Source: Siphonodentalium dalli
Taxonomy: Eukaryota; Mollusca; Scaphopoda; Gadilida; Siphonodentaliidae
Reading direction: 5' to 3'
Length of the DNA: 64,000 nt
Assembly: GCA_032622095.1 (NCBI GenBank)
Contig: CP136066.1
Span: 153,475,152 to 153,539,151, forward strand
In this document: positions 19,516 through 64,000 of the stretch, one piece after another
Numbering within the stretch: position 1 is the first letter of the stretch
Layout of the letters: each line of letters opens with the position of its first letter
Notes under the pieces: generated by a model
What the model was told of the DNA's origin: nothing
Seen by the model: the letters and a program-made list of their open reading frames with translations, nothing else
The model's database searches: none
Made by a program: the position numbers and the translations under genes

Positions 19516-22500
19516 TTGAGCAAAACAATTGGTCATTTTCCTCTAACTTTTCGCAATAAAACTACTCTTTCTGACAATTTTATGGTCAGCATCCATTCAA
19601 ACTCACAATGTCACAATTTTATTATATATGTAACAATATTTCAGAAATATTACTTGACAAACATGATTTAAATGATTAAACTGAACAACCAATACAGTGA
19701 TGCCGCCAAAGCCCAGATCTGGGCTTCCAGCACTCTTACATAGGTTCAAATATGGGCTTCCAGCACTGGACCAGTTAAATGGAGTCATCATATGCGACAC
19801 TGCCGGCAGACTTCCTATAAATTTCTACTTTCAGTTTCCCAAGAAATCAAACTTGTGTGTGTTTTCTGGAACCATCCAATTTACAATGGATGTTTAAGGA
19901 GATTAACATCGTTTCCAGTGAATTTTGCAGTGTTTAGTCATGAGACACCGAAATACACAATGTCAATCACTAGCTGATTCGATTCGATGTTGATATCAGA
20001 CGGAGACTCGATCTTCGATATGATGCAAAATCCCCGATTCGCAGATCCCTAGGGCCCAGATACAATCCATATATAGCTGATAATAAATGCACTTCATTGT
20101 TCATATAATTTATTAGTCCCCCTTGAAGTCATCTGAGGTCAAAGGCGCCTGCCCAATGACAATCCACTGGTCAGGTGACCCATCTGTACCAATGTTCCTA
20201 CTTATCTCCTAAGCAGATAAGAAACGCTTTTTATTGCTATTTCCCTCTTAAGTCGTCGGCAGTCCACGGCATTTATCTCCTGACGCTCTAAGGGTCAATT
20301 TATCCCGTTTCAATTTTCGTCAACCAGATTGCAACTGTTAAGACATCTGACAGGACCTATATAATAAGATTGACAATAGATGGGGGGAAAAAGTCATTTT
20401 GGGAGCAATTCAGCAAAAAAAAAACCAGCTTGTTTCAGTGTCGTGTCTAGTTCTCTCGTAAATGAAGGTTGAACCTCCTATGTTTGGGGGCTATAAACAT
20501 GCCACGTTGGCGATCAAAAGCACATTACCTAAACTATACAATATCGTATTTCATAACAAAGACATGCTTTAATTGTATGCCTGAATATCCCATTAAAAGT
20601 CAGGCGCAGCCGTTTACTGTCATTTTCAATATACCAGCCTGATTTCAAATGGTGATGGTACAACACTTGGTAAAATCATGTTTTGAAATCCGCTTTGAAT
20701 GAAAAACACTACTCTTTGCATGACTAAATCATTTGGCACACCCTAAAGATGACTTCACTCATCCGATAGTCACCAGACTTCATATGGATCTTCGGGACTA
20801 CCACATTGGAGCAATCAAATTTTTTTTGAAAATGTGCCTTCTGACAGCCATCTTGATTTTACTGTTTGCATGACAATCCTTCGGCACACCCCTGCAAGTC
20901 ACATCTCTCATCACTAAACTTCATATTGATCAAGGGTAACCTCGGGACTGAGCCTCACATCCCCCCTCCCCAAGTTTAACTACATTGTCAAGAGTTATTA
21001 CTTACCTTAATATCAGTTTACTTACTAGTCCAGATTAGTCATCCAAATTCATGATTTGTCGGTTATTGGGTGCAGCAACAATATCTTCTTGTTTTGGGGG
21101 GGGGGGGGGGGCAGTTTTGTCCATGACTTTTGGTCAAATTTTTCAGGGGCTTGGCAGCATTATTGCCCTGGATACAGTTGTGGGACAATGCGCATCGGCC
21201 GTCCATGATGCACATTCAACACAGAAAATAAAAGGTTTTGTCTCACAGGCCATTATTCTTTGTGGGGGCCTCACAATGAGTAAATGTACCTATTAATTGG
21301 CGTTATATTTCACAATGCGTTATAGACCCTGTGCGAGTGAAATCTCTTATATATGGGCGTCTCCAATAGGGAGCCACACATATGTAAGAGAATCCTCATA
21401 AATTAAGATTTTGATGTAGCAAAATTACCAGAGTTTATGGAGATTTCTAGGACAAACCTGGACACCCATCTGATCAGTAAATATAAAACATATATTAAAA
21501 GTAATCAATCTAAATAAAGAGAAAACTGCCTGTGAAACAAAAAGTTTTAAAATCTTGCAACGAAAATCGATTGGTCTTAACCAGAATCTACCATCAATTT
21601 GATGTCATCACACGTCAATTTGTACCAACGAGAGCTTTCATTCATAACTTTTTTTGCTTTGCAGGACACTAACAAGTTCCATTTCTGGAATGGAATATTG
21701 ACCTGGAACGGTCTTATTGGGGCTCACAGTAAAATTTATTTAGTAGCATATATTGTCTCCATTATCAAGTACAAATATTGTATTGTCATCCGAGAAGTGC
21801 ATTTGTTGGTTGTTGCTATATCTAGAATATGCACAAGAATTAGTGATTGGGCGTACTGATATCCATGGTTTGCAGCTTGGTATATGAGACAGTCACACAG
21901 CTTTGTTATAGCTGGATTGTAGCACTCATCCCATTCAAGATGGTTCAGACATGCAGACTTGGAATTTAACAAAGATACATGTGAAATGACATGAGTACTG
22001 TTCAGACGAATCCATGATTTTATGCAGAAGTTTGATATTCGAATAAATGCAAAATTGTAAATCAGTCTAATCAATTCTACAATAATGTCATGACTTTGAC
22101 ATAAAAGTAAATTTCCCTTCCATCCAAGGAGTCACCATCTTTTATCAATTGAAAACAGGCAAGTAATAATGCATGCCATCGTTGAAAATAAATTCTCCAT
22201 TGTGCAAGTTAACCGATACAACATATCGTAGCCATCTGAATGCCTCATTGTGATCATGCAAGTGTAACCCTTTCTATACTAAATACTCATTGACGAGTTG
22301 TTCCCTTTGTTGAACTCATTATCTGAACATTTCCAAACAACATATATAAAGGTTGTTGAACAGGACTCCTTCTGAACTTGTATTAGTTTTCAACTGCTCA
22401 AAGGAAATATCAACAGAAATACTTTGCAAAGTCACCATCAACCTACCAAGAGGTTTGTGTTAATTCTAACTATTTTTTTCTGATCGCTTATTCAATTTAG

Positions 22501-22945
22501 AATTCAATTTGAAAAAGAGATTGTGGATATTTAAAGTAAAATTATTGCAATACTTAAACAAACGTTTCCAGACTTACAGTATCACAGCAATAGAATAAAT
22601 CCACTGAATCTGCTGCCAAATAATTCTGTTGATGGTCCATATTGACAGGCACCCAAGTGGAGGGAAATGATTGACACAAACACACGTGTAAAGGGGGCCA
22701 AATCATTTATTTTTAGAGTTATTTTCAACAGTATTTCACTGAACAGTACATGAAAGTACATTTGTTGTCAACTGATTCACAAATCCAGTTTTGTCTACAA
22801 AATAAAAATTTAGAATTACATGTAGTAGATAAAGGTCAAAAATAGTAATTGCTTTACATTACAAATTAAAAATTTATTGAATAAAAATTCTATTGATCCA
22901 AATTATTTAACTTATTGACAGAACTACTTTTTCAATAGAGTCAAA
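19516..22945. other. No gene recognised
   Basis: Short frames only. Features seen are a 12-base G-run at about 21101-21112, a degenerate copy of the hairpin family at 21330-21400, and a half-copy of a dispersed element at 22264-22300. Some frames of 80-110 codons have no recognisable motif. Confidence 0.5.
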
Positions 22946-25900
22946 ACTATTTTGATTATAAATCTTGAATTCAATTTTGTTTGTTTGTTGAGGCTTACAA
23001 CAAAACTATTCTGAATTGATTCAATTTTTTTTTATGTTTGATCATTTTTAAGAGAAAGTTTAATCTACAAGTCAAATATCAACTTACTATTGTCTAAAGT
23101 TTTTATTTACAAGCATTTAAAAGTTTAGCAGTTAAGATGTTGATTTGTATTACTCAAATCACCAAGATCTGGCTGGCAATCACCTGAAATTTGTCATTTG
23201 AAAAAAAAATTGGTAATGCCATCTTTCACCATTTTTTATTTTATTTATTTATAAGTTATTTACATTTAAAAAACCTGAGAAAAGTTGCAAGTTTGGGGAA
23301 ACCTATTTTATAGTCAAATTTGTTGGCCAAAATAGTGTCCAGTATAGCTGTAAGCGGGCTACCCAACCCCAACTTCCTTTCATTTTTTTTATCTCTGTGG
23401 ACTGAGGAAGGGGGAGGTAGGATTTCTCCATGTGCTTCAACAGCTGCAGAATGTTGTCTCATTCCCTGGACAAAAAAAATATTTTCCCAACTTTACAAAA
23501 AACTGCCCATATATTTAACTTATTTGTCTGACTGCAGCAGCATATGTACTTGCTTCCCTGAATCATCTCTGTCTGCATTCAACTTGCTTCCTGTATGGCT
23601 ACAAATTTAATGCCAAAGAAACTCACCAAACTTACAATGGTGTTTTTAATTAGTGGTACAAGACTACATTCAGAATAAAATTGATGGATGTTGATCAGAT
23701 GTCAATAAGTCGGTGAAATTAGGTTACTTGTAAAGGAATGAACATCTAAAATGCGAAGATATCTATAATTCACCAAAATCTCAACAGAGCACAACTGCAT
23801 ATCAAAGTGAAATCTCATCTGAATGGTGGATGTATCTAAATTCTTGAAATCAGCGATGTATTTGAAATCAAAACTACAACAGAAAAGAATCCCAAAATGC
23901 CAAGCAATATCTCGACGTCCGAAAAAGTGAAGAAAAAACTGAAAAAACATTGATTACTGATTACCAATCACAAAATAACTTGCTACCAGCCCATTAGTCG
24001 ACACTGAAATTACTCAAACTATTAGAAACAAACGTGTTTAGAGTGCTCTTCTGCTTGGAAATCATTGAATACGGTGGTGCATGTTCTTCATTGAGACATC
24101 TGTCTGTCTGGGTCTGTATATGAGCTTCAAAAGATAGCTGTTCCACGATCTTATTCATTTGTTATTCTTGTGTGGCTTCCGGGTAACTTTATAAACTGAA
24201 ATAGTACAGTCATATCAATAGCTCCCCACCCTCCCACTCCACACATATAGACCTGAAATATCGCGGAATTAACTTAGTGTGTTCTTTGTATAACTGCATT
24301 GAGTAAACAGTCCTATGAAAAAATTATTCTTCCCAATTCTATAAAAGTTTAAAGTAAAACGTTTGCAGAATAATTAGCCAGCAATCAGTTTACCTATCCT
24401 GAAAAATCTAAAAACCTTCCTAGATTCAGTAACTTTGTTCAAATGGTTCTAAATAGAAACCACCCCCCCCCCCCCCCCCCCCCCGATTTCCAATTTCTGA
24501 AATTTCACAAAGTATGTGATTGACACTTAGCACTTGCCTGAACATCCAGAAACCTAGAAAAAATCTTGCCATTGAAGATCCATCTGTCTTTAAAATTCTA
24601 AGAAATTCATTCACTGCAAAAATGCTAAATTTAAATCCACCCCTTCCCACGATTCCAACTGATTCCGACTACTTCAGATAAAATGTTTGGTGAATTGGAA
24701 TATTACTTGGGCAGCATAGATCATGGCACACTCAAAATTTGTTCAGTAGGTACATGCTGTTCTGTGGAGGAAAACAAATCTCCCTAAAGTCTTGATAGAT
24801 ATAAATCAGCTTTGTTGAAAAATTCTCCCTGTACAGTTCTGAAAAGTAAATTAAAGTGAGTCGCCCCCGCCCCATCCTTCCCAGTTGAAAACAGACTTCC
24901 TTTAAGTTCAGTAGTTTGGGATCAATTAGAAATGACTATAAAATAGAAACATCAAACCTTAAATTATTGTTTGTGACTAAATAAAGAAAGTGAGTAATGG
25001 TATAAGTAGCAGTACTGATAGATCAAAGTTCTCAACAATGTCTGCAGGTTAATTGAAATGCTCTTGAATTAAATAACGTCCAGGAACAGTTCTATTGGAA
25101 ATCCTAGCATCAATTCTAATACCTTAATCTACAAATTCCTTCAGTTAAATGGTACCTACATAAACGTTATTACATTCAAAGAAAAAGTGACAAACTAAGG
25201 CGGGGGTGAAGTCAGGAATATAATTTCACAACACCTTAAAACAAATTTCTTCACCAAGCTTCTGCTTCTTCTGATTGGCTTCTATTGAAATCTTAGGGAG
25301 CAACAATTTGCTTTAGAAAAGTTTGAATAGTATACTATCTTTGATATAAATCTGTTAGTCTGCTGTGAGTTTGGTTAGAGTCATCCTGCATCACCATATA
25401 TAAACAGAGATTATATTTATATAATTTGCTGGAGTGGTTGGAAGTGAAATGCTGTAAGCATTCTGAAAAAGGTGAAAAAGGTTGCAGTTAGGTTGTCCCC
25501 ACCCCCAACAGCTGAAATTAGTTATTGTGTTATCAGATAGCTTTAGACATATTTAGGCACTTCACAACAGTGGACAGCATTAAGGAGTGTAACTAATTCA
25601 CTAAGAAAACGCTTTGTAAGGATTATGTATTACTCATGCAAAGCAAGATTGTATAGAGGAAATTAAAGATCTAATATACAAGTGGATATATTAATATGTA
25701 TACCAAGTGGCCCCGGATGCTTCTGCTACACAGCAGTAAATATCACAAAGCTAGTATTTATTAATCATAGTAATGGGGAAACAAAGTTAGATCAGTATTT
25801 AACTGTTTAATATCATAATAATTAAATGGTGCACTAAGTTAATCTTAAGCGTGTTCCCTACCCCGCACAAAACATACTTCATGCAAACAAAGCAGATTTT

Positions 25901-26530
25901 AGAGCAGAGATGTCCTATGGGTTAAAAAAGTTTCTTTTACAAAAATAACAATGCAAATGCATAGTGCACAATGTTAGTTTAAATCACAAAAAACTAACAG
26001 ATATCTGAGTTACTAAGAAAGGAGGAATCATCAAATAAAAAAGAAACCTTTATAACAAGTGTACTCACAAAACTGAATTGATTACACAAAGGAACTTGAA
26101 CAAGTGTACTCACAAAACCAATCAAATGGAAATGTGTTTGGTCTTTATAAAAATGGTTCTTCTACACAGCAGAACTTATTCCTGTCCCTATTCGCATCGC
26201 GAAGTATCTGGAAAAAGATCGTGTTAACTGCCCACCCAATTCCCAAACATTTCATGTCTCAACCTTACTTCCTCCGTAATGTGCTTAAATTTATTGATAT
26301 CAGTAAAATTCATATTACCACATTTCAGTTCTCTTTATACGTATATTATTTATGTTAAATATTGTTGCCAAAACTGTAATTTCATTAATGGCACAGTATA
26401 AGATGATTTGAATGTTTAATACTTTATGTATAAATGCTTAAAATTGGTAGAAATAAAATTCTGGTAGAAAATAAATTATATTAGGCAATAATTGCCGAAC
26501 ACATCAGAAGAAATAGGTGAATCTTACTTT
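22946..26530. repeat. Segmental duplication, block A copy 1
   Basis: This matches 39473-43030 nearly colinearly at high identity, at a constant offset of about 16.52 kb, with scattered substitutions and short indels. Its left edge at AACTATTTTGATTATAAA is where the duplicated array begins. In the minus direction it is the downstream end of the unit. It holds acceptor-like modules near 24195, 24398, 24613, 24838 and 25462 and a 22-base C-run at about 24463-24484 that copy 2 lacks. Confidence 0.9.
23733..23946 (-). other. Candidate exon, open throughout (block A)
   Basis: On the minus strand an acceptor-like TTTTTTCAG is followed by an open frame of about 71 codons (FFLHFFGRRDIAWHFGILFC, then FKNLDTSTIQMRFHF, then DMQLCSVEILV) up to a possible donor at ACAA/GTAACC. 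The copy at about 40239-40453 stays open too, but its acceptor is AAG and its donor GTGACA, both weaker. By hand I count eight amino-acid-changing and two silent differences between the copies, which argues against current protein-level constraint. No family recognised. Confidence 0.3.
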
Positions 26531-26607
26531 ACCGATGACTTTACCGATTCTGGACAAAGTACTTCAGTTTGTTTACGCCTTCTTGAGTGTACTCACAGAT
26601 CTCTTAC

Positions 26608-26639
26608 ATGTATGTCCTTTCAACTAGCAAGCTTTTTAA
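26608..26639 (-). other. Candidate 32-nt microexon
   Basis: The minus strand reads a G-run, GTTGCTAATAGATTGCTTTT, TCAG, then 32 nt, then GTAAGAG, a strong donor. The segment around it is present in every B block, and at 52680-53300 it is itself duplicated in tandem (two units about 350 bp apart), so the module behaves as a duplicating exon unit. Confidence 0.35.
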
Positions 26640-26924
26640 CTGAAAAAGCAATCTATTAGCAACACCCCCCCCTCCCCACAACATGTTATGGCCCTTAAAA
26701 ATGATAGTCTTGATTGTATGGTACATGTAAAGAATAATTGCAAACGGTTATTATGTCATTAAAATTGGAAGTATTTCAAGATTGAAAATAAAGGAGTTGA
26801 TTTAATTCATAGAATGGTTATGACTGACATTCAGAAAATGATCTCAGATAACTGTTCCACATTAGTTATGAATGAAAATAGATCAGCATGTATTTTTATA
26901 GATAATTATAGAACCTAGCTATAC

Positions 26925-27299
26925 CTTAGCGCTACGAAAAGCTACTACACGATGGGGAATATCCAACATTCTCTCAGCTCTTATGTCTTTTAGATTCAGA
27001 TGTTCACAATACGCTTGATTGAAGATATCTGTCATATGATTACTCGTCACTTGAAATCCGTCATATTACTAGTCATTCAGCAACAACAAATTACAGGTCA
27101 ACTCTTCGCCATGGGAATATCGTTTCTCATTCGATAACCTTTACAAACATTGCAACATCACAACTCCATTTCTTGGACATGGCATTCTTCTGACTCTCAA
27201 AGACAATGCTGAATTCTGCTAACAACTTTATTTTTATCTTCCTGGTGAAGTTTTAATCTTCCAACAACACCTGCCCGATTTTCACTTATCTGAAGGAAA
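26925..27299 (-). other. Candidate exon E3 (not open)
   Basis: The acceptor GCTAATGAAGTTTCCTTCAG is preceded by GGGAGGGTGGGG, and the donor is CTAAG/GTATAG. The length is 375 nt. All three frames contain stops; the longest stretches read ISENRAGVVGRLKLHQEDK and KKWSCDVAMFVKVIE. It is either non-coding or decayed. Copies lie at about 37319, 38999, 43802, 53833 and 58605 (acceptor positions). Confidence 0.35.
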
Positions 27300-27599
27300 C
27301 TTCATTAGCATATCCCCACCCTCCCTGTTTAACAATGACAAATAAAAAATTTGGTTCATAAATTTCGAAGTGAAATGAAATTACTTTTATCCACAAGTAA
27401 ATGTGCATGAAAACTAAATTATTACATTGTTTTTAAAAACAAACCACCATATTTATTATAACTTTATTTAATTTATCAAAGATATTCTAAAATTATTACA
27501 TTAAAGAAAATAAGACAAAAACCAGAAATTTAAATTAATCTGAGGCCAGAGTTTGCTCACAGACAAAGTAAAATAAATACTATTCAAACACAGACTTAC

Positions 27600-27967
27600 A
27601 TAGCACGATAGCCAACTTCTTTTGCGGCAAACAATTTGGCAAACTTCTTATTGGGACGATACGACATCCAGACTGGCACGGCTCACATTTTAATATTTTA
27701 ATGGTTGTCGGAGGAATTCATTCTATTCCTCCCAACATCCCTACTGCGGGTTCCACTTTTATACAACAAGCAGCCATAAATTTCTTGATTTCCATTAAGT
27801 GATGTTAAACGGCTCATTCACTAAATTTGGCTCACAACTTTCCAGCTCCAACAAGTGGATCACTAATATTTATTCGGAACTTGTACAAATCTTCATTACT
27901 GTAAACTGGCTTTTCGCAACCAAATCATTCCATTCCATGCGGATAGTGGGTGGCAGAGTTCATTTAT
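27600..27967 (-). other. Candidate exon E2 with the conserved hairpin
   Basis: The acceptor GCTAATAAATTCTTCTTCAG follows GGTGGGG, and the donor is GCTAT/GTAAGTC. The 368-nt segment has stops in all frames. One stretch, EDLYKFRINISDPLVGAGKL, weakly resembles VEFNFTSRATSVGRLCAF of E1, suggesting common descent. It contains the GGAGGAAT hairpin at 27704-27736. Copies lie near 37500-37865, 39290 (partial), 44128-44505, 54170-54540 and 58920-59285. Confidence 0.4.
27704..27736 (-). other. Conserved hairpin, GGAGGAAT stem
   Basis: On the minus strand stem GGAGGAAT, loop AGAATGA, stem ATTCCTCC, extended by GTTG/CAAC outside a small bulge. Same element at 37598-37629, 39390-39420, 44238-44269, 54274-54305 and 59022-59053. 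A second stem version (AAGAAAT in place of GAGGAAT) occurs at 30466-30501, 32571-32603, 46352-46387, 48477-48510 and 62604-62640. Confidence 0.75.
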
Positions 27968-28499
27968 CTGAAGAAGAATTTATTAGCCCCACCAATCCCA
28001 ATCATGAAACATATTCAATGTAAAGTTGTGTACTAACATGTCTTTAAAAACTATTAGCAATTCATTTTGTTGATTCAGATATATACTTGTATGTAATGTT
28101 CACAGAATTTTCAACATCTTTTCAAACCTACCCTATCTATAGATATATAGATCTCTATGCATAGTATAAGTAGAAATAAGTAGATGATTCGGTATTTAAA
28201 ATTAACAGAACAGTTTAAACTGTTTTTATTATAAAGTGTTTGGAATTCTAGAAATAACTCGCATAATAGTTGGGTTGCTGAAGGCAATAGACATAACTGA
28301 TACCTCAAGACAAATTTCCACGCTTTGGATGAGCACCAGACATTTCTCAACCTCCACACCCATTGGCACACCATTAGAACGCTTGTCAGAAAAGATTCTC
28401 TCTAATAAACTGGATTCTTATAATGGTTTCTAGTCAGAAAATCCACCTGACGAGTTGATAATTGAAAACCACCCGGTGTCAGAAGCAGCGCTGGTACAA

Positions 28500-28860
28500 G
28501 CCGTAGAAGCATCTTACAAGGGAACATGGTTGCTTGGATTATCAAAGGACTTCGCCATACGGTTGTTGGACTTGGCATTAATAGACTGTAGTTGATTCAG
28601 CATCATTGAAAGCTTGATGTTTTATACAAGTATTGTTGCCTTGATTGTCCAGAAACTTTAACTTTACGATATTCCATGGTTATCTTTGAGAACACTATCC
28701 TATATGGGGGCATTGTTATATCCAACACATCGTATCAACACACCATTTCCAGGAAGATGGACCCACTTCTGGTAGAAGTTGCGGAGGCATCTCTAATCTA
28801 CACAAGGGAACATGGCAGCTTGTTGTCAATAGACTTCGCTGTATTTTTGTTGAATGTTGG
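28500..28860 (-). other. Paired diverged sub-repeats X and Y
   Basis: Two minus-strand segments, Y (about 29010-28813) and X (about 28760-28508), share AATGCCCCCAT, AATCAAGGCAACAAT, CAAGTC/CAGTCCAACA and finally CCATGTTCCCTT followed by a donor-like GTGTAG or GTAAGATG. They are ancient duplicates of each other. X also reads LPGNGVLIRCVGYN, resembling HPGNGIKLMQCQN of E1. Frames are broken, so no product is assigned. Confidence 0.4.
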
Positions 28861-29066
28861 ACTGGCATGAGTAGATTGTACCAGTGTTGATAGCATTATG
28901 GAAACATTGTTGCCTTGATTCTTTACTCTTCGAAAATCCTATCCTACATGGGGGCATGGTTATTGCTCTATACTCCCATCTGGGACAAGCCTCATGTTGC
29001 TCTACCATGGCACCGATACCAACTCCAGAGGACCCAGATATAAGCTCGACGAAAACTGGTTTATCT

Positions 29067-29419
29067 TTAAACGATTGAGATAAATAACCTATTCTGACAC
29101 TGCATCAACATTATACCATTTTCCGGATGTTGGAATGACAGCCCTCTTCCTACGTCCCCATCCTTGTACACATGTCTAAACAGATCATGGCCATTGTTGA
29201 ATACCTTTGGTCCAATATTAAATGCACACAGCCGCCCGACACTTGTTGCCCTGCTTGTAAAGTTGAATTCAACCACATTCGGAGATTCATCATAACATGA
29301 GAGGAAACTAGATATTGTAGAAATCTTGTTTGGAATACTCAAACGCAACATCGCTGGTATGCCCCAAAATTCTTGAAAGATGGTGGAGATACAGCCACAA
29401 CTTTGGGCATCATCTTTAT
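29067..29419 (-). other. Candidate exon E1, longest open segment of the array
   Basis: The acceptor TACTAATAAGTTTTCTTCAG is preceded by GGGAAAGGGAGG. The following frame is open for about 117 codons to a stop at 29067, with a possible donor at AATAG/GTTATT (29089). It reads DKDDAQSCGCISTIFQEFWG, then SSFLSCYDESPNVVEFNFTS, then GHDLFRHVYKDGDVGRGLSF. No family was recognised. The copy at 61216-61562 is also open and differs by a 6-base in-frame deletion and nine substitutions, only one of them silent by my count. The 55.7-kb copy is frameshifted and carries an extra ~68 bp; the 45.3-kb copy is deleted. Confidence 0.4.
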
Positions 29420-29720
29420 CTGAAGAAAACTTATTAGTACCTCCCTTTCCCAATATTAGGCAAAATATTTTAGGTTGTTTACTATAACTTAGGTTTTGCA
29501 ACTGAAGAACAGATTATATGATGTACATCATTACGCCCTAGGATATAAAAGTTAAAAATTTGAATATGATAAAATATTTGAAACAAGAACTAATTGGATC
29601 TACTGCATATTAAATTTATATTATGCACATTGGCAATAGCTATTCTATAGTAAGTGAATTACCTGGCAAGACAAAATTCAAGATCTATGAAATAACATCA
29701 AGCGTTAAATCTAGACTTAC

Positions 29721-29918
29721 AGAAACTGCTCAGGGGATAAGTGATGGTAGATGCAAAACAGTTTACACAATTTCCTCAGCCTCCTATATCTTTGTATAAT
29801 CATATGATCACGCCCTTGCAAACTTGCATCAAGTGCTGGAGTTCCGAAATCCTCGTTTCTTATATTAAATTCTGCCACTTGATAAGTGTGTTCCGAGAAT
29901 TTTAACTTGTGATAATCT
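29721..29918 (-). other. Candidate exon F1, open and phase-symmetric
   Basis: The acceptor GGAACTAACATTTTCTTCAG follows GGGGTAGGATGG, and the donor is TTTCT/GTAAGTCT. The 198-nt segment is open throughout in one frame, one base plus 65 codons plus two bases (DYHKLKFSEHTYQVAEFN ... DHMIIQRYRRLRKLCKLF ... LSPEQF), so its inclusion would not shift a frame. The copy at 45.6-45.8 kb has one nonsense change; those at 56.4 and 62.0 kb are frameshifted, and the 56.4-kb copy has lost GT at the donor. Confidence 0.4.
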
Positions 29919-30297
29919 CTGAAGAAAATGTTAGTTCCATCCTACCCCAACTGACATTTACACATAAGTAGTGCAAGATTTGTTGAAAACTACTTAAATT
30001 ACAAAAGGAATTTAGAATTTGTAGATGGAAAAATGAATTTTGAAATACAATACTAAAATTAAATAGTGTTTAAATATCAAACTGATGTCAGATGCAGAAA
30101 AAGTAAAAAATTTGTCCCATTAATTAAGCAAAGACTCACTATAGTTTTGAACAGCTCCACAACAGCGCAGGAATATTCAATCAGTTACAATGCCAACTCC
30201 CCAAAAATGGTCCACTCTCAATTTCCCAGCAGCGTATAATCTGTTTCAGATTCCATTAGTTTACAGCTTTCATCAATCACACAACTAAACTGGTTAC

Positions 30298-30377
30298 CTG
30301 AACATCTCGGCACCAAACAAAAATGTTACTTTCCACGACTCCATTTTAAGATTAATTTTTTCTTTCTTGATGAGCCC
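30298..30377 (-). other. Candidate 80-nt exon
   Basis: The minus strand reads GGAGATCTGCAG, then 80 nt open in one frame (GLIKKEKINLKMESWKVTFL, FGAEMF), then GTTCAG/GTAACCAG. Both sites are close to consensus. Copies occur near 46.2, 56.7 and 62.45 kb; in the 56.7-kb copy it has been fused by deletion to a different module. Confidence 0.35.
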
Positions 30378-30559
30378 CTGCAGATCTCCCATGAGACGAT
30401 CAGCCTATGCAGATTTTTATTCACAGCTCCCCAGGACTTCAGCGATGATGAGCCACCATTTTTACGATGTTGAAGAAATTCATTCTATTTCTTCCAACAT
30501 CTCCTAATCTTCCGCGCTGATAACAGCAACAAATTACTCTGAAAAAGCTCTTCTTCTAC

Positions 30560-30676
30560 CGAAACTTGCATAAATCTCCCAACCAGGACCATTCAAAATT
30601 TAAATGGAGTCTTATGGCCAAATCTCCGACTTGAACGCGGTTATTGAGAACGCTTCCCTGTAGGCAGCCACATGAC
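30560..30676 (-). other. Candidate exon F2, open and phase-symmetric
   Basis: The acceptor GACTAATAATTTCACTTCAG is preceded by GGGGTGGG, and the donor is TTTCG/GTAGAAG. The 117-nt segment is open (SCGCLQGSVLNNRVQVGDLA, then IRLHLNFEWSWLGDLCKF) in the same phase class as F1. Its SCGC start resembles the SCGC of E1. Just downstream on the minus strand lies the second-type hairpin at 30466-30501. Confidence 0.38.
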
Positions 30677-31715
30677 CTGAAGTGAAATTATTAGTCCCCA
30701 CCCCAGGAAAATCTATGTAGCATTCCTACACAAATATTTAGTTAACCACGAAATTAGTGATAAACAAGATTTATACAAAGGTAATTTATAAACAATGACA
30801 CAAATGGAAAATTAAGCAATTAAGTTATTCACTACTAAATAAACTTAAATTAGAACTATAGAATGGAGGGAATATCTTATAGATTGAGCCAATTAAGCAA
30901 CATTTCTAGGTGAAACTTTTTATAGGTAGTAAGAGTTGACCTACAATATTATTACGCTACAAATTTGATATACAGAAATCAAATGTTATATTAGAAAAAT
31001 TTGGGTTTAGTGAATTACCTGGTTACTAATGAGTAAACAATAAACTGAAGCCTGAAATTTGACAATATTACTCTATGAAAAAAGCCAGATAAGGCTAGAA
31101 TTAAACTGGTTAGCAAGCACACCCTACATCAGAATATAAGCTGGCTTTAAAGGTATCCAATATATCAGGACATAAGTACATATCTAAAAGCAGTAGATAT
31201 TCTCATGCGATCGGAAGTCTTTACAGATAGATGGGAATCCAAATATAGTGATACCCGGTGCAGACTAAATACATTTAGTATTCATATATCAGGACATAAG
31301 TGCATATCTAAAAGCATTCAAGATATTTTCATACAATCGGGAAAAGTATTTACAGTTAGAGGTTAATCCCAGAAGGTGAAATCAAAGAGATACACATGGC
31401 GAAACCTAATATAGTTATACCAGGTGCAGAGTAAACACATATCTAGTCTTGATACCTTATAAAGATAGTTAGCTCATGCAGTTAAAACTATAGTTTCTGA
31501 GATTTGTAAACACAATACAGGAAAAAACAGATTTCTTGACATACAATCAAGTCTCTGGCTGTTTAATTCAGATTCATGAGTAATACACTAATAAAATAAT
31601 GTTATGCGCCCCCACCGATATCCAGACACAAGCTTACAAAAATAAGCACAACACATAAGCATGATGCACTTCAACCTTGTTTAAAATAATTACTCCCGAT
31701 GTTAAGTGTATATAC

Positions 31716-31880
31716 CTTCACATTCTCTTAAACGATCTGCACCTAAAGCATTAGCAATTGTATTCGATTACAATTTCTACCATCTTTTTGACATTCTTCC
31801 CCATCCAATCAGAATCTCTCAGAAGCGATGAGCCTATGGCACAATCCAGTTCCTTACACCAAAACATAGTTCAGCGATAT
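31716..31880 (-). other. Candidate exon in block G
   Basis: The acceptor AGCTAATAAATTTTCTGCAG follows GGGAGGGATGGG, and the donor is GTGAAG/GTATATAC. The length is 165 nt, a multiple of three, but every frame has a stop. Fragments read WIVP and DWMGKNVKKMVEIVIEYNC. The copy is at about 47615-47778. Confidence 0.35.
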
Positions 31881-33673
31881 CTGCAGAAAATTTATTAGCT
31901 TCTCCCATCCCTCCCAATTAATATGTAAGTGTATATAAACCTTGAACATTTTGATCTAACCTCAAAATCAGCAATTTTCTTTGCTTTCAAATGACTAAAA
32001 AATACCTTGTCATTGAAGTCCTCCGATGTTCCCAAAGAAAATATAGAAATAATATTTTGACCTTTCAGAATCATTGGAAAGTTCCACAAGATTTCATATA
32101 ATTAAAATAAAATACCTTACAATAAGTGAAGTAACCTATGAGGAAAGCAAACTACATATACCTTTGAACTTTAGTTCCATTAGTGCAGGCTAATATTGAA
32201 AAAAAAATACCTCTAGATCCAACAGTGCATATTTAAGAAAAGCATACATTTTCCAAGGTTATTGTACAGGAATGTTTTTGTCAGTTTTGTTAAGTCTACT
32301 TCGGCAAAAGTATCGTTGAAATAGTTAAATGGTTCAGTGTTTACCAGCAACTTTATTTTTTCATAGAAGTATAAATACCTTCACAGCCAAGACATGATCG
32401 ATTTGAATAAATAAAGCAAACAAAACTATAAATACCTCTTTTCACGAAAAGCCCATCAAGAAGACATAAATTAACTAACGTACCTCTTACTCCAATCAAA
32501 CAGAAAAAATGAGCCAGAAATATATAATAAATACCTCTTCAGTGATCAGTAATAATTGCATATGGAATGATTGTTGAAGAAATTCATTCTATTTCTTCCA
32601 ACATTCTTACAACAGCATGAAACAATTTGAGGCTTTATATTCACTTGTACAAAACTTTTGGAAATACAACATTGAATTGACAGATCTGAAAAAAAAATTA
32701 CATTTCCCTAATCCTAATGCTATTTATTTGCAGAAATTACATAGAAAACTCTAAAGCTTGATTATCTCATTGATATTATTATTAATCAACCAAATTGTTT
32801 AATATAACAGTATATTTTTTTGAGTTTCTTTTAAAGTTTTTTTTTTTCTTCGGAAATCTAATATATTGACAATACAAAAAAAAGTAAGATATCAAAATTT
32901 CCCTTGTGTGCAGAATTTATACAAATATTGTAAATGCTATTACGCTTGCAACACATGGATAAAGAAGTTTGTATATCATTAATATGTACGGTGCAATTAT
33001 AGATGCTATAGGTTACAGGATAAAGCTAGCAACACATCCAAGTACTCACAAGTTACAAAGCTATATAACAGAGCTTGCAAAAAGGTTGTAAATGGCCAAG
33101 TCAAGCACCTTGTAGCCAGAAATCTGAAACCAACACTATTAGGCGACAAACAAGGTGTGAAATCAATTGGGTAAATGCAAATACCGGTATAACACCACAC
33201 GTGTGAAATCATAAATAGTAGTTTTAAAAAACTTGAGAACCTAACTAACATAATCAAAATTAAACAATAATTAGCTAACACCCAAGCTTCGGACAAAACA
33301 GTTGCATTTAGTCAGATCTCACATGAGGGTTGATAATACTTTATGAATTCTATTTAGAAACAGAAAATGTGCAACTCAAAAATCACCAAAAAAAATGCTG
33401 ACAAAAATTATGTCAATGGCAAAAATAGTGAAACCGTAAAACACGTGTAAGCAATTACGAATCAAGATGCAGCAGAGACAAATAACAATTCAACATGGTT
33501 AATCTATTTTATGGTTAACTACATACCGCCCACCATTAAGTCAAACCACATCGAAATTCAAAACGTGGAGTTTTGAAGTAAAAAACAGGTTTCTTCCAGA
33601 TATCTACAAAATATCAAATATTATCCCCACCCATGCCCAATGAACAAGCAGGATTGAAAGGAATAAGTGTGTT

Positions 33674-34610
33674 TGTAATACATGCATAAAAATGGTGCAC
33701 ATCGACCCTGAACTTGTAAAGCACAAGACAGAGGCAGCACCACCTCCCCTCAGTTGATCTTCATTGGGGATAATTGAAATTTTTACGAACCATGATGCAG
33801 AAGAGACAAATAACAATTCCAACACAGTTAATATTTTATGGTTTAACTACATACCGCTCACCACCAAGTCAAATTACATCAATTGCATTTGTAATACATG
33901 CATTAAAATGGTGCACATCGACCCTGAACTTGTAAAGCACAAGACAGAGGCAGCACCACCTCCCCTCAGTTTATCTTCATTGGGGATATGTGGCGATATA
34001 AAATGGAAAATGTATCCAAAATCACATCAAAAATATGCTGATAAAAATTATGTTAATTGCAAAAATAGTGAAACCTTAAAATACGTTTAAGGAATTACGA
34101 ATCGTGATGCAGAAGAGACAAATTAAAATGCCAACACTGTTAATCTTTTTTATGGTTTAACTAAATAACGCTCACCACTCAGTCAAATCACATCAATTAT
34201 GTGTGTAATACATGCAATAACATGGTGCACATCGACCCTGAACTTGTAAAGCACAAGACAGAGGCAGCACCACCTCCCCTCAGTTGATCTTCATTGGGGA
34301 TATATAAAATTCTAAATGTATATCTAAAATCTGACAAATTCTATTCCTACCTAATCATTGTGCACTTGCTAATGCTTTTTGATTTCATCAATTTCTCTTT
34401 TAATTGCACTTACTAGTATATAGAAAGCACTTTAACTAGTTGGTGCACTCTCTGTCTGCTTGTTGAATATCTATCTGAAGAATACATTAATTCCACCCAT
34501 TCCCACATCTTAAATAAACTCAATAACACTACTACACCTAAAAGCCTAAATTGGTGCACATCAAGGTAGCACCAAGCTCCCCTCAGTTAATCTTCATTAG
34601 GGATAGCAAT
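33674..34610. repeat. Tandem ~220-330 bp sub-repeats of block H
   Basis: The motif GGTGCACATCGACCCTGAAC, then TTGTAAAGCACAAGACAGA and CTCCCCTCAGTT, recurs at about 33690, 33909, 34223 and, degenerate, 34552. Read on the minus strand each unit has GGGGAGGTGG, a pyrimidine tract, CAG, ~75 nt and a GAGCG/GTATGTAG donor: the acceptor-exon-donor layout again. The enclosed segments are not open. Confidence 0.8.
34414..34474 (-). other. Candidate 61-nt exon
   Basis: The acceptor GGAATTAATGTATTCTTCAG follows GGGAATGGGTGG, and the donor is ATACTA/GTAAGTGC. One frame is open (RYSTSRQRVHQLVKVLSIY). The copy near 50.6 kb has lost the donor sequence by a small deletion. Confidence 0.3.
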
Positions 34611-36099
34611 ATAAATTTCAGGCTCGCATATGATTTTGAGATGTTTTTTTTTTTGTTTTAAGTATGGGGGCAATATCAAGTAATTTTCTTAATTTTTTTT
34701 AGCCTAATAATTGTTCTACCAATATCATTTCCACAAAAATATCATGTTGCACTACTAAAAGTTCATTAATAAAAGTTTACTATTTTGGGACAACCAGAAT
34801 TTATATTCAAATATGTAGTTAATGCAAAACTCACATCATTGAAAAAAGGAAAACAAATTGCAAACCATAGTTAGTTCTAACCCTTTCTGTTCTGTCACCA
34901 CCTATTAAAGCAGAGAAACTTCAACCTCCATATGAACACATTTCCATGGTAATGTAAACTTCAGGGCTGCACGATTCCTTAACCTATAAAAAAATATGAT
35001 GTTAGTACCGTAACGAACCCACCACCCTCCAACGAGTGACACCTTAATCAATGCACACTGCTGGAAGAATGATCAACTCATAACAGTTATTTTTGTTACT
35101 TGAAACAAATCGGTCAATGACCAAAATCTAGTAAACCTGAAACATGCATGAATGCACCCCCGAGTCGGACCGAACGACTGGTGAACTGAAAGTTTTAATA
35201 TTTATAAGCGCAGTTTGTTAGTAGCAAAAGTGATATGTTCATCATGTTAGATCGAAGAAATTTAACTAAAGGAAAGAAAATATCAACATTTATTTATGCA
35301 AACCATAAAAGTTCCTTATGAATAATCATTTAAAGAATTTCACCAAACAGCAGCAGATATATTCTGACTAGAGTAACAATAACAAGTTGTTGGAAAACAA
35401 GCAATTAAATTAAATACCGCCTAAAAGAAAGAGTGCCGATAGATTAGTGAAATTAGTGGTAATTACAACTTGAAAGAAAACAGCTATGCAAATTAGCAGT
35501 AAATGAACTACACAAAGAAAATATAATTATACCGAACTGTGGGTGATCATGAAGAGAGTGGCCAACTGGAAAAGGAGATGACTACATCGGATTGTTCACT
35601 TTATCTGAGCATGAAGCATGGTGCACTCGAACCATTTCAGCTCATAATCATTCATCATGTCTTCATTTTTAATAGCATGGAAGGTCTTCAAAATCCTTAG
35701 GTATTCTCTATTGTATTCCCTATTTATTCTCGCATACATCTATAATTTATATCGCAACACAACAACTTTAGATTAATCAAGCATAAAAAACTTTAAACTC
35801 TGATCTAAAAATTAAAACAATCCAAAAGAATAAATGTCGTTAGATCACATAAGAAAAATGTGTCAGAAATAATGACAATGGTCATAAATTTCTTGTTTCA
35901 TAATATTACCTACAATCAAACTTCAACAGCTTTCTGCTTCTGTTCGGTTTCAACGTGAAACAATAATTCTGAAATTTAATTTAATTTCAGATATCCTACA
36001 AGATTTATTCTACCCAAGCGATTTAAAATGAACGTGTTCAGAGCAATCTGAAAATAGCATAGCAGAGATGTCCTATGGGTGAACATATTTTGTTTTTCT

Positions 36100-38740
36100 A
36101 CAAAAATGACAATGTAAAGGCATAGTGCACAATGCTAGTAACAAGTGTACTCACAAAACTGAATTGATTAAATAAACAAAGTAAATTGAACTGAACAAGT
36201 GTACTCACAAAACCAATCAAATGGAAATGCATATAGGTCGATATTCAAATGGTTCATCTGCAAAGCAGAACTTATTCCTGTCCCTATTCGCGTCGCGAAG
36301 TATCTGGAAAAAGAGCGTATTATCTGCCCACCAAACTACCAAACATTTCATGTCTTACTACTACCTACGTAATCTGTGCTTAAATACATAAATATCAGTA
36401 AAATTCATTGCATTTCCACCTTTCAGTTCTCTTTTATTTCCATATTCTTTATGCAAAATATTGTTGCCAAAACTGTCATTAATGACACGCGGTTCAGAAG
36501 ATATTTTTGTAGATATTTTGACTGTTTAATACTTTCTTGACAAATGTTTAAAATTAGTAGAAATTTTATTTTATTTGGCCGAACACAGATGATGAAATAG
36601 GAGGATCTTACTTTACAGATGACATCACTTTGTTTACACCTTTCTGTTTTATCAATCTCGGATATGGAACATTGCCTCCTTGAGTGTACTCCGAGGTCTC
36701 CTACATATGTCCTTTCAACTTGATTTTTTAACTGAAAAGCAATATATTACTCTATTAGCAACCTCCCCACACCAACATGTTATGGCCCTTAAAAATAATA
36801 CTCTTTGATTGTATGGTACGTGTAAAGATTAATTACATATGCAAATGGATATTCAGTCATTAAAACTGAAAGTATTTAAAGATTGAACATAAAAGACCCT
36901 ATTTAATTCAATTAGAATGGCTATGACCGACAGCAAATTACTTCAGATAACCGTTTCACACAAGTTATGAATGAACATAAATCAGCATGTATTTTTCAAA
37001 GATAATTATAGAACCTAGTAATATCCAACATTCTCTCAGCTCTTACATCTTTTAGATTCAGATGTTCACAATACCCTTAATTTCTTGATTGAAGAAATCT
37101 GTCAATTGATTACTCATTCGGCAACCACAAATTGCAGGTCATGTCTTCGCAATGGGAATATCGTTTCTCATTCGATAACCTTTACAAACATTGCAACATC
37201 ACAACTCCATTTCTTAGACATGGCATTCTTCTGACTCTCAAAGACAATGCTGAATTCTGCTAACAACTTTATTTTTATCTTCTTGCTGAAGTTTTAATCT
37301 TCCAACACCTGTCCGATTTTCACTTATCTGAAGGAAACTTAATGAGCATATCTTCACCCTCCCAATGACAAATAAAAAAATGTGGTTCATAAATGGCGAA
37401 GTCAAATGAAATTACTTTTATCCACAACAAGTAAACGTGCATGAAAACTAAATTATTAAACAAAGTAAAATAAATACTATTCAAATTTAGACTTACATAG
37501 AACGATAGCCAACTTCTGTTGCGGGAAATTATTTGGCAAACTTTTGGACGATACGACATCCAGACTGGCACGGTTCACATTTTAATATTTTAATGGTTGT
37601 TGGAGGAATTCATTCTATTCCTCCCAACATCCCTTCTGTGGGTTCCACTTTTATACAACAAGCAGCCATAAATTTCTTCATTTCCATTAAGTGATGTTAA
37701 ATGACTCATTCACTAAATTTGGCTCACAACTTTCCAGCTGCAACAAGTGGATCACTAATATTTATTCGGAACTTGTACAAATCTTCATTACTGTAAACTG
37801 GCCTTTTGCAACCAAATCATTCCATTCCATGCGGATACAGTGGGTGGCAGAAATCATTTATCTGAAGAAGAATTTATTAGCCCCACCCATCCCAATCATG
37901 AAACATTCAATGTAAGGTTGTGTACTAACATGCCTTTAAAAACATTTAGCAACTCATGATGATTCAGATATATCATTTTTTAAAGCATCTTTTCAAACCT
38001 ACCATATCTATATATATATAGATCTCTATGCAAAGTATAAGTAGATATCAGTAGATGATTCAGTATTTAAAATTAACAGAACAGTTTAAACTGTTTTTAT
38101 TATAAAGAAAGTGTTTGGAATTCTAGAAATAACTCACATAATAGTTGGGTTGCTGAAGGCAATAGACATAACTGATACCTCAAGACAAATTTCCACGCTT
38201 TGGACGAGCACCAGACATTTCTCAACATCCACACCCATTGGCACACCATTAGAACGCTTGTCAGAAAAGATTCTCTCTAATAAACAGGATTCTTATAATG
38301 GTTTCTGGTCAGAAATTCCACCTGACGAGTTGATAATTGAAAACCACCCAGTGGCAGAAGCAGCGCTGGTACAAGCCGTAGAAGCATCTTACAAGGGAAC
38401 ATGGTTGCTTGGATTATCAAAGGACTTCGCCATACGATTGTTGGACTTGGCATTAATAGACTAGTTGATTCAGCATCGTTGAAAGCTTGATGTTTTATAC
38501 AAGTATTGTTGCCTTGTCCAGAATTTTTAACTTTATGATATTCCATGGCTATCTTTGAAAACACTATCCAATATGGGGGCATTGTTATATCCATCACATC
38601 GCATCAACACACCATTTCCAGGAAGATGGACCCACTTCTGGAAGAAGTTGCGGAGGCATCTCTAATCTACACAAGGGAACATGGCAGCTTGTTGTCAATA
38701 GACTTCGCTGTATCGCTGTTGAATGTTGGACTGGCAATGA
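36100..38740. repeat. Segmental duplication, blocks B-D copy 2
   Basis: Homologous to 26.05-28.87 kb. It ends at a junction near 38737, where the Y-type sequence GAATGTTGGACTGGCA runs directly into E3-type ATGATTACTCG. A 117-codon plus frame (38111-38464) is open here but interrupted in sister copies. Confidence 0.88.
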
Positions 38741-39472
38741 TTACTCGTCAATTGAAATCTTTCATATTACTCGTCATTCAGCAACAACAAATTACAGGTC
38801 AATTCTCGCCATGGGAATATCGTTTCTCATTCGATAACCTTTACAAACATTGCAACATCACAACTCCATTTCTTAGACATGGCATTCTTCTGACTCTCAA
38901 AGACGATGCTGAATTCTGCTAACAACTTTATTTTTATCTTCCTGGTGAAGTTTTAATCTTCCAACAACACCTGCCCGATTTTCACTTATCTGAAGGAAAC
39001 TTCATTAGCATATCCCCACCCTCCCAGTTTAGCAATGACAAAAAAAATGTGGTTCATAAATTTCGAAGTGAAATTAAATTACTTTTATCCACAAGTAAAT
39101 GTGCATGAAAACTAAATTATTAGATTGTTTTTAAAAACAAACCACCATATTTAATATAACTTTATTTAATTTATCAAAGATATTCTAAAATTATTACATT
39201 AAAGAAAATAGACAAAAACCAAAAATTTAAATTAATCTGAGGCCAGAGTTTGCTCACAAAGTTAAATAAATACTATTCAAATACAGACTTACATAGCACG
39301 ATAGCCAACTTCTTTTGCGGGAAACAATTTGGCAAACTTCTTATTGGGACGATACGACATCCAGACTGGCACGGCTCATATTTTAATGGTTGTCGGAGGA
39401 ATTCATTCTATTCCTCCCAACATCCCAGGGATTACTGCGGGTTCCACTTTTATACAACAAGCAGCCATAAAA
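38740..39472. repeat. Segmental duplication, partial B-C copy
   Basis: Matches 27.04-27.78 kb, then stops at CAAGCAGCCATAAA and joins block A sequence (AACTATTTTGATTATAAA) at about 39473. Confidence 0.88.
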
Positions 39473-42400
39473 CTATTTTGATTATAAATCTTGAATTCAA
39501 TTTTTTTTATGATTGTTGAGGTTTACAACAGAATTATTCTGAATTGATTAAATTATTTTTATGTTTGATCTACAAGTCAAATATCAACTTACTATTGTCT
39601 TAAAGTTTTTATTTACAAGCATTTAGCAGTTAAGATGTTGATTTTTACTTTTTATTACTTAAATCACCAACATCTGGCTGGCAATCGCCTGAAATTTATC
39701 ATTTCCAAAAAAATTGGTAATGCATCTTTTGTCATTTTTTATTTATTTATTTATAAGTTATTTACTTTTAAAAATCCTGAGAAAAGTTGCAAGTTTGGGG
39801 AAACCTAGTTTATAGTAAAATTTGTTGGCCGAAATAGTGTCCAGTATAGCTGTAAGCAGGCTACCCAACCCTAACTTCCTTTCATTTTTTTTTTTATCCC
39901 TGTGGACTGAGGAAGGGGGAGGTAGGATTTCTCCATGTGCTTCAACAGCTGCAGAATGTTGTCTCATTCCCTGGACAAAAAAAATATTTTCCAAACTTTA
40001 CAAAAAACTGCCCATATATTTAACTTATTTGTCTGACTGCAGCAGCATATGTACTTGCTTCCCTGAATCATTCTCTGTCTGCATACAACTTGCTTCCTGT
40101 ATGGCTACAAATTTAATGCCAAAAGAAACTCACCAAACTTACAATGGTGTTTTTAATTAGTGGTACAAGACTACATTCAGAATAAAATTGTTGGATTTTA
40201 ATCGAATGTCGACAAATCTGTGAAATTATGTCACTTGTACAGGAATGAACGTCTAAAATGCAAAGATATCTACAATGCACCAAAATCTCAACAGAGCACA
40301 ACTGCATATCAAAGTGAAATCTCATCTGAATGGTGGATGTATCCAAATTCTTGAAATCAACCATGTATTTGAAATCAAAACTACAACAGAAAAGAATCCC
40401 AAAATGCCAAGCAATATCTCGACGTCGGAACAAGTGAAGAAAAAACTTAAAAAACATTGATTACTGAATACCAATCACAAAGTAACTTGCTACTAACCCA
40501 TTGGTCGACACTGAAATTACTCAAACATATTAGAAAGAAACGTGTTTAGAGTGCTCTTCTGCTTGGAAATCATTGAATACGGTGGTGCATGTTCTTCATT
40601 GAGACAACTGTCTGTCTGGGTCTGTATATGAGCTTCAAAAGATAGCTGTTCCACGATCTTATTCATTTGTTATTCTTGTGTGGCTTCCGGGTAACTTTAT
40701 AAACTGAAATAGTACATTCATATCAATAGCTCCCCACCCTCCCACTCCACACAAATAGACCTGAAATATCGCGGAATTAACTTAAGTGTGTTCTTTGTTT
40801 AACTGCATGGAGTAAACAGTCCTATGAAAAAATTATTCTTCCCAATTCTATAAAAGTTTAAAGTAAAACGTTTGCAGAATAATCAACCGGCAATCAGTTT
40901 ACCTATCCTGAAAAATCTAAAAACCTTCCTAGATTCAGTAACTTTGTTCAATTGGTTCTAAATAGAAAAGTGAAACAAATAAATTTTGATATCCCCTCAT
41001 TTCCAATTTCTGAAATTTCAAAAATAAGTATGTGATTGACACATAGCACTTGCCTGAACATCCAGAAACCTAGAAAAAATCTTGCCTTTGAAGATCCATC
41101 TGTCTTTAAAACTGTATTTAAAATTCTAAGAAATTCATTCACTGCAAAAATGCTAAATTTAAATCCACCCCTTCCCACGATTCCAACTGATTCCGACTAC
41201 TTCAGATAAAATGTTTGGTGAATTGGAATATTACTTGGGCAGCATAGATCATGGCACACTCAAATTTTTTCAGTAGGTACATGCTGTTCTGTGGAGGAAA
41301 ACAAATCTCCCTATAGTCTTGATCGATATAAATCAGCTTTGTTGAAAACAAAAATTCTCCCTGTCCAGTTCTGAAAAGTAAATTAAAGTGAGTCCCCCCG
41401 CCCCTTCCTTCCCAGTTGAAAACAGACTTCCTTTAAGTTCAGTAGTTTGGGATCAATTAGAAATGACTATAAAATAGAAACATCCAACCTTAAATTATTG
41501 TTTGTGACTAAAATAAAGTGAGTAATGGTATAAGTAGCAGTACTGACGGATCAAAGTTCTCTACATTGTCTGCAGGTTAATTGAAATGCTCTTGAATTAA
41601 GTAACGTCCAGGAACAGTTCTATTGGAAATTCTAACATCGTCAACCAATTCTAATTCCTTCATCTACAAATTCCTTCAGTTAAATGGTACCTACATAAAC
41701 GTTATTACATTCAAAGAAAAAGTGACAAACTAAGGCGGGGGTGAAGTCAGGAATATAATTTCACAACACCTTAAAACAAATTTCTTCACCAAGCTTCTGC
41801 TTCTTCTGATTGGCTTCTATTGAAATCTTAGGGAGCAACAATTTGCTTTAGAAAAGGTTGAATAGTATACTATCTTTGATATAAATCTGTTAGTCTGCTG
41901 TGAGTTTGGTTAGAGTCATCCTGCATCACCATATATAAACATAGATTATATTTATATAATTTGCTGGAGTGGTTGGAAGAGAAATGCTGTAAGCATTCTG
42001 AAAAAGGTGAAATAGGTTGCAGTTAGGTTGTCCCCACCCCCAACAGCTGGAATTAGTTATTTTGTTATCAGATAGCTTTAGACATATTTAGGCACTTCAC
42101 AACAGTGGACAGCATTAAGGAGTGTAACTAATTCACTAAGAAAACGCTTTGTAAGGATTTATGTATTACTCATGCAAAGCAAGATTGTATAGAGGAAATT
42201 AAAGATCTAATATACAAGTGGATATATTAATATGTATACCAAGTGGCCCCGGATGCTTCTGCTACACAACATAAAATATCACAAAGCTACATGTAGTATT
42301 TATTAATCATAGTAATGAGGAAACAAAGTTAGATCAGTATTTAACTGTTTAATACCATAATAATTAAATGGTGCACTAAGTTAAACTTAAGTGTGTTCCC

Positions 42401-45320: not shown

Positions 45321-45329
45321 CTCCCTTTC

Positions 45330-63665: not shown

Positions 63666-63742
63666 AACAAGATTTATACAAAGGTAATTTATAAACAATG
63701 ACACAAATGGAAAATTAAGCAATTAAGTTATTCACTACTAAA

Positions 63743-63900: not shown

Positions 63901-64000
63901 TATTTATATACATTTAGCGAAAAAGCCACTTTTGTATATGTATTTAAATCGAAAAGAGTATCGTGACAAAACCAGCCCAAAATAACCCATATATAGCACC
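63901..64000. other. No feature recognised
   Basis: Last 100 bases; not homologous to the duplicated array. Confidence 0.5.

Follow-up and report, generated by a model that had tools for sequence, protein, structure and literature searches.

The window analysed here, i.e. the whole stretch of 64,000 nucleotides at CP136066.1:153,475,152-153,539,151 (C6:153475152-153539151) of the scaphopod mollusc Siphonodentalium dalli (assembly GCA_032622095.1; a 2.23-Gb genome in 9 contigs), holds a large part of an array of minus-strand blocks that have been duplicated many times. In these blocks an acceptor module, consisting of a run of G (G-run), often a CTAAY branch-site-like motif, a pyrimidine tract and AG, recurs in front of proposed exons. 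A further 80 kb were read along the contig beyond the window, and coordinates marked ext carry on the window numbering. The array fills 22.4 kb to ~109.5 kb (ext), hence ~87 kb, and passes the window end by ~45 kb. Comparison of window and extension with themselves shows an architecture of nested large tandem duplications, because of which copies of the same class are ~71-99% alike across exon and intron. The segments 22943-28763 and 39469-45321 are 92% alike, and the array blocks other than these and the duplicated unit listed first below are ~71-95% alike to one another. The array and its proposed exons are laid out as follows:

22387..39471, minus strand: duplicated unit of ~17 kb, 98.3% like ext 72237-89335 (C6:153547388-153564486)
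22387..64000, minus strand: in-window part of the array, which continues to ~C6:153584660 (~109,500 in window numbering)
34414..34530, minus strand: G-run acceptor 34474 and short proposed exon; proposed donor following 34414 (GT retained in 0 of 2 copies)
33527..33660, minus strand: G-run acceptor 33603 (TAG) and proposed exon; proposed donor following 33527 (GT retained in 7 of 10)
32535..32685, minus strand: acceptor 32685 (no G-run) and hairpin-bearing proposed exon
31716..31935, minus strand: G-run acceptor 31880 (CTAAT, CTGCAG) and proposed exon
30140..30735, minus strand: G-run acceptor 30676 and hairpin-bearing proposed exon; proposed donor ATA/GTGAGT kept in 4 of 4
29721..29975, minus strand: G-run acceptor 29918 and proposed exon; proposed donor TCT/GTAAGT kept in 3 of 4
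28304..29475, minus strand: G-run acceptor 29419 and long proposed exon (~1.1 kb if single), with frame-breaking indels among copies
27600..28025, minus strand: G-run acceptor 27967 and hairpin-bearing proposed exon of 368 nucleotides; donor TAT/GTAAGT kept in 10 of 10
26925..27345, minus strand: G-run acceptor 27289 and proposed exon; proposed donor retained in 4 of 7 copies
26528..26700, minus strand: G-run acceptor 26639 and proposed exon; proposed donor AAA/GTAAGA kept in 6 of 7
26114..26260, minus strand: G-run acceptor 26207 and proposed exon; donor TTT/GTGAGT kept in 8 of 8
25235..25515, minus strand: G-run acceptor 25462 and proposed exon
24707..24895, minus strand: G-run acceptor 24838 and proposed exon
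24538..24660, minus strand: G-run acceptor 24613 and proposed exon; possible GC donor CAG/GCAAGT
22950..24245, minus strand: G-run acceptor 24195 and downstream end of the unit; at least 3 genome matches, all at the locus

The original prediction, made from the letters of this stretch, had placed G-run acceptors at 14 minus-strand coordinates, and 12 of these are the first base after a pyrimidine tract and AG, with a G-run no more than ~50 bases upstream. At 24398 there is an acceptor-like site that lacks the G-run, and the junction given as 27299 really lies 10 bases away at 27289, where both a G-run and CTAAT are found. The CTAAT-type motif, said to be present in many cases, occurs in strict form (CTAAY) upstream of 8 of the 14 sites. 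Two further G-run acceptors lie at 26207 and 34983, the latter just outside the range that had been predicted, and a third additional acceptor, 32685, is without a G-run and leads a hairpin-bearing exon. Among the 17 acceptors listed in this way for the locus, 15 possess a G-run and 9 a strict CTAAY.

The module is far more frequent than expected and confined to one strand. Within the unit 22387-39471, the minus strand holds 13 modules and the plus strand none, whereas 200 dinucleotide shuffles gave 0.58 on average and never more than 3. Two of the 13 are doubtful, 30657 being a second AG and 24448 a poly-G site. From 22387 to 106500 the minus strand carries 78 and the plus strand none, a count whose members are not independent, since most go back to duplication and several represent a further AG next to the same G-run. 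Both the excess and the minus-strand bias also appear under a stricter module rule. The G-run module is not the usual acceptor of this genome: in control acceptors from myosin and kinesin genes of the same assembly, a G-run was present in 0 of 31 and a strict CTAAY in 1 of 31, with the reservation that these sites, which remain from 34 loci after removal of three without a confident acceptor (L002, L031 and L042), represent two gene families, come in several cases from one myosin cluster, were chosen by pyrimidine score and are thus not fully independent.

It had further been claimed that the acceptor region alone is alike between modules, and this can be upheld together with the exon-like spacing, the shared module and the single locus. 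When 15 acceptor classes were compared (32685 and 24398 being left out), 19 of the 105 class pairs exceeded the best of 105 shuffled pairs over positions -50 to +12, whereas none of the 105 did so over the first 200 exon bases and only one over the intron from -260 to -60, namely 34474/33603, at the site of a structured block described below. Genome-wide searches, whose counts are lower bounds, were made for six pieces of the array, and the matches of all six are confined to the C6 locus and to its minus strand: at least 12 for the exon at 27550-27967 (12/12 at the array), at least 21 for the long exon of the 28304-29475 class (21/21), at least 9 for one module (9/9), at least 3 for the unit end (3/3), at least 22 for a hairpin (22/22) and at least 20, two of them partial, for the block (20/20). 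A dispersed, genome-wide repeat, which would have spoken against the proposal, is hence not what these searches returned, and the central observation of the original prediction is right in substance.

How far the splice signals are kept was followed in 69 BLAST pieces of less than 96% identity, and because these copies share a history and are not independent, Fisher values can serve as guides only. Acceptor AGs survive in 68 of 71 comparisons between diverged copies, other AGs in 2249 of 2753. With equal windows, the G-runs of the module are kept in 64 of 71 cases versus 47 of 70 for other G-runs outside the block, and those of the block in 22 of 24 (a wider window for module than for background G-runs gave 66/67 versus 70/100).

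From their sequence, the proposed exons are best regarded as non-coding. Of the 42 frames in 14 proposed exons, 39 are interrupted by stop codons. Among copies, a length that is not a multiple of three is seen in 188 of 244 exon indels, introns being alike in this respect (325 of 436); in this analysis the start of exon 27289 was placed 10 bases early. The window contains 31 open reading frames of at least 100 amino acids, and the 20 of these that were searched against Pfam yielded no family at cut-off and one weak DUF match below it. Protein-coding exons were rejected on the strength of the stops, the frame-breaking indels and the absence of a Pfam family, and the missing coding frames support the alternative of a non-coding transcript that had been raised before, provided that the locus is transcribed.

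Three of the proposed exons (27967, 30676 and 32685) carry the same hairpin, with AGAAUGA as its loop and a single bulged G in a stem of 12 bp. In the window it is present at these positions:

27701..27741, minus strand: AGAAUGA hairpin with GG/CC stem; also at 37593-37633, 39386-39426, 44234-44274, 54270-54310 and 59018-59058
30463..30503, minus strand: AGAAUGA hairpin with AA/UU stem; also at 46349-46389 and 62602-62642
32567..32607, minus strand: AGAAUGA hairpin with AA/UU stem; also at 48473-48513

The loop is identical in all 22 aligned copies, although the search that gathered them itself favoured that loop. Two stem pairs shift from G-C to A-U between classes and are thus changed on both sides, and across 12 distinct rows 97.9% of the pair cells are standard, a value that falls to 31-58% if the partner is slid by 1-3 columns. 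The hairpin changes at a rate of 0.014, a value as low being reached in 2% of draws of random 31-mers (rate 0.095), and has no indel event in 471 aligned sites, the rest of the exons having 1.39 per 100. The likeness of the three classes to one another lies largely in this element, since their pairwise exon scores of 46, 50 and 66 drop to 25, 26 and 17 without it, at shuffled maxima of 28, 25 and 28. A covariance model run over 144 kb recovers the same 22 hairpins with E = 5e-11 or better, the next matches having E = 0.005 and weaker and being mostly reverse complements. A decayed relative with a different loop lies at 55746-55782.

A second repeated element is a structured block of ~80 nucleotides:

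33690..33771, minus strand: ~80-nucleotide block, CCCC-AAUGAAGAUCAACUGA-GGGG followed by GGUGC..GUGCACC; more window copies from 33987, 34301, 49914, 50148 and 50468
starts 34604 and 50761, minus strand: shorter form of the block

The block is sharply bounded, nearly invariant across 18 aligned copies and free of indel events in 480 aligned sites, compared with the same 1.39 per 100 for the rest of the exons. Its consensus is predicted to fold into CCCC..GGGG with a 16-nucleotide loop, followed by GGUGC..GUGCACC, at -23.95 kcal/mol. No pair was found changed on both sides among the 18 copies, and in two copies the fold does not surpass that of shuffles (z = -0.6 and -0.7). The shorter form is without the inner part and retains GGUGC..GUGCACC, its single-sequence fold lacking the CCCC..GGGG helix. 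In 8 of 21 copies the block lies 164-168 nucleotides upstream of a 33603-type acceptor and would therefore be intronic there, if the exon model holds. A known RNA family was rejected, as Rfam gave no match at gathering score in the whole window; in 22400-39500, matches up to E = 2 comprise two weak ones on the plus strand, neither of them a small nucleolar RNA (snoRNA).

Taken together, the sequence suggests a large, repeat-built non-coding RNA gene. From our point of view, the best explanation is a single-locus gene for a long spliced non-coding RNA (lncRNA) on the minus strand that presents repeated hairpins, to which we give a probability slightly better than even (roughly 0.53). Such a gene could have grown to ~87 kb through repeated duplication of exon-intron blocks, and its exons would be defined by an unusually strong 3' splice signal, composed of the G-run, an often near-perfect branch site, a pyrimidine tract and CAG. 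Proteins of the hnRNP F/H type act on G-runs and are able both to enhance and to suppress exons. Presumably the G-run represents an intronic splicing enhancer bound by such a protein, which upholds exon definition despite the poor conservation of exon sequence and donors. Many AGAAUGA hairpins would then be present in the spliced product, and we infer that its likely function is the display of many copies of one protein-binding hairpin, either as a multivalent scaffold or as a sponge. Only tentatively would we go further and propose a very large lncRNA private to this locus, in which exon modules were multiplied while nothing but the G-run acceptor, the AGAAUGA hairpin and the 80-nucleotide block was kept, and which would be a multivalent structured RNA with a splicing code of its own.

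A number of observations weigh against an lncRNA gene and have to be considered here. In terms of substitution rate, the acceptor tract lies just slightly under the background (a value as low in 9.9% of random draws) and the G-run stretch is ordinary (48%), so that it is the motif of the module that survives and not its precise sequence. The claim that acceptors are often followed by a good donor has proven weak. Hand-picked donors keep their GT in 57 of 67 cases versus 2623 of 3219 other GTs, donors picked by score are kept no better than other GTs (0.084 versus 0.094; 43% of draws as low), and a low donor substitution rate in the exon/intron comparison is partly a product of selection by eye. 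Single donors vary, those of 27967 (10/10) and 26207 (8/8) being well kept and those of 34474 (0/2) and 27289 (4/7) poorly. The rate of change in exon bodies comes close to that in introns (0.062 versus 0.071), and the conservation profile gave no clean contrast between exon and intron. With respect to the hairpin, two of five pairing measures of the stem are no better than shuffles, the stem changes may represent one or two events, 25 of 200 shuffles match the fold of 32560-32622, and pairing has become poor in the copy at ext 106435. Exons 27967 and 32685, which without the hairpin score 26 at a shuffled maximum of 25, may in addition retain some likeness besides it.

Base composition gives an indirect and mixed picture. 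CpG is depleted over most of ~20-122 kb (mostly 0.3-0.6), which counts in favour of the lncRNA gene, and the minus strand of the array is G-rich and mostly T-rich. CpG nevertheless reaches 0.83-0.84 inside the array at 60-65 kb and is also low outside of it (0.47-0.53 at 10-15 kb). The 34 coding loci, when pooled, show a CpG of 0.74 and a skew near 0, and the skew of the array is therefore a peculiarity of the locus and no general mark of transcription in this genome. This skew control and the residual likeness of the exon pair tip the balance slightly from an lncRNA gene towards a decayed exon array.

The latter is the chief rival, and we regard it as unlikely but serious: the locus would be a former gene, now without function, whose copies have stayed alike only through gene conversion and recent duplication. 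The similar divergence of exon bodies and introns, donors that are not detectably kept, the very recent 98.3% duplication, the absence of open frames and the decayed hairpin relatives (ext 106435; 55746-55782) are all in line with this idea. However, a decayed array would not readily account for AGs and G-runs that stay above background in diverged copies, for a hairpin and a block without indel events (471 and 480 sites) or for compensated pairs in the hairpin stem. The decayed array, which had been offered as an equal alternative, is hence the less good fit, given the retained acceptor AG, G-runs and hairpins.

It is also conceivable, if rather improbable, that the locus hosts small structured RNAs, the 80-nucleotide block being released from introns in the manner of snoRNA host genes. 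The sharp bounds and near invariance of the block in 18 copies, its position 164-168 nucleotides before a 33603-type acceptor in 8 of 21 cases and its predicted consensus fold (-23.95 kcal/mol) would suit such a role. However, there is no Rfam match at gathering score, the two sub-threshold plus-strand matches being weak and not to snoRNAs, inspection by eye revealed no box C/D or H/ACA layout, two copies do not outperform shuffles in folding and no pair is changed on both sides among the 18.

Very little speaks for alternative, perhaps mutually exclusive, exons in which the G-runs would act as selectors by pairing to a single C-rich docking site. Tandem exons that each have the same intronic element are what this model would demand, and for the C-rich sites 23414, downstream of the 17 listed acceptors, and 28954 the mean duplex values are -20.2 versus -18.7 (standard deviation 0.7) and -15.9 versus -11.0 (standard deviation 0.7) for shuffles, respectively. 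An unbroken C-run, however, pairs with any G-run, which the shuffles leave uncontrolled, and of six C-rich sites that pair with the G-runs none is singled out. Moreover, the proposed exons range from 61 to 1116 nucleotides, are unlike in sequence and are non-coding. Of the interpretation given by the original prediction, the non-coding transcript therefore fares well and the exclusive exons with a G-run selector do not. Finally, a dispersed repeat or the ordinary acceptor signal of the genome, for which one could cite that G-runs, branch sites and pyrimidine tracts are common features of splicing in general and that a generic module pattern of our own making (up to 2 mismatches) matched two other places and not this locus, seems on sequence grounds largely refuted and hardly deserves credence, as the matches to all six pieces searched for (lower bounds) lie at the locus and 0 of 31 coding acceptors has a G-run.

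Several further features were observed within or beside the array. About seven AGGTAT-type donor-like sites stand in a row on the minus strand at 32000-32540 (by eye), possibly as alternative donors or micro-exons, and the donor-like words GTGAGTACACTTG and GTGAGTACACTC recur beside exons 26207 and 26639 (26050-26130 and 26590-26610; by eye). A G-quadruplex as general feature was dropped on inspection by eye. The molluscan haemocyanin family gave no match either, a negative of little weight, since it was detected nowhere in the controls. Beyond the array end, the flank 20432-22391 is 87% like ext 69650-71668, whereas the adjoining 17 kb are 98.3% alike, which suggests either that gene conversion acted later or that the unit by itself was copied more recently. 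The open reading frame 21736-22131 was discarded as a gene, as it has no Pfam family and stops and shifts disrupt the copy of it at ext 69650-71668. The segments 18770-19183 and 60233-60655 are 94% alike in inverted orientation and may represent a mobile element by which the array is interrupted. A tandem repeat with a unit of 170 bases lies at 63043-63587, and 62894-63395 has a 91% copy at ext 120586-121090. A separate repeated stretch at 1464-3630 has a 178-base tandem unit at 3158-3630 and more copies from 1464; the two of its open reading frames that were searched gave no Pfam match.

With many internal paralogues, this one locus shows what was kept, namely the G-run acceptor, the hairpin and the block. 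If it is transcribed, it would offer a direct test of whether repeated hairpins are working parts of an lncRNA, and likewise of whether G-runs define exons without help from coding sequence. Dscam-type clusters share with the array tandemly duplicated exons that each have a common intronic element; they differ in that their exons are of like size and content and have one docking site (PMC6071210), whereas the exons proposed here are unlike each other and non-coding.

No similar case stood out among the papers listed in a literature search, which is not to say that the locus is unpublished. Host arrays of the SNORD115/116 type consist of tandem, poorly conserved non-coding exons with structured repeated elements. 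The array resembles them in both respects, but it has no Rfam match and, by eye, no box C/D layout, and its hairpins lie in the proposed exons. Xist, roX and Firre possess repeated hairpins or repeat domains that are thought to bind protein many times; the repeated hairpins of the array are likened to these by description, the window being without an Rfam match at gathering score.

By analogy, the nearest known system in principle is NORAD, an RNA that is not known to be spliced and is bound by Pumilio through sequence motifs. This mammalian lncRNA is described as a series of repeated units that have diverged while preserving short motifs and stem-loops, one of the latter with stem-preserving changes (PMC4947167). 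The array is alike in being non-coding and composed of diverged repeated units that retain short motifs and stem-loops. Unlike those of NORAD, however, its units look like exons with introns, and the parts that they share are a splice module and the AGAAUGA hairpin.

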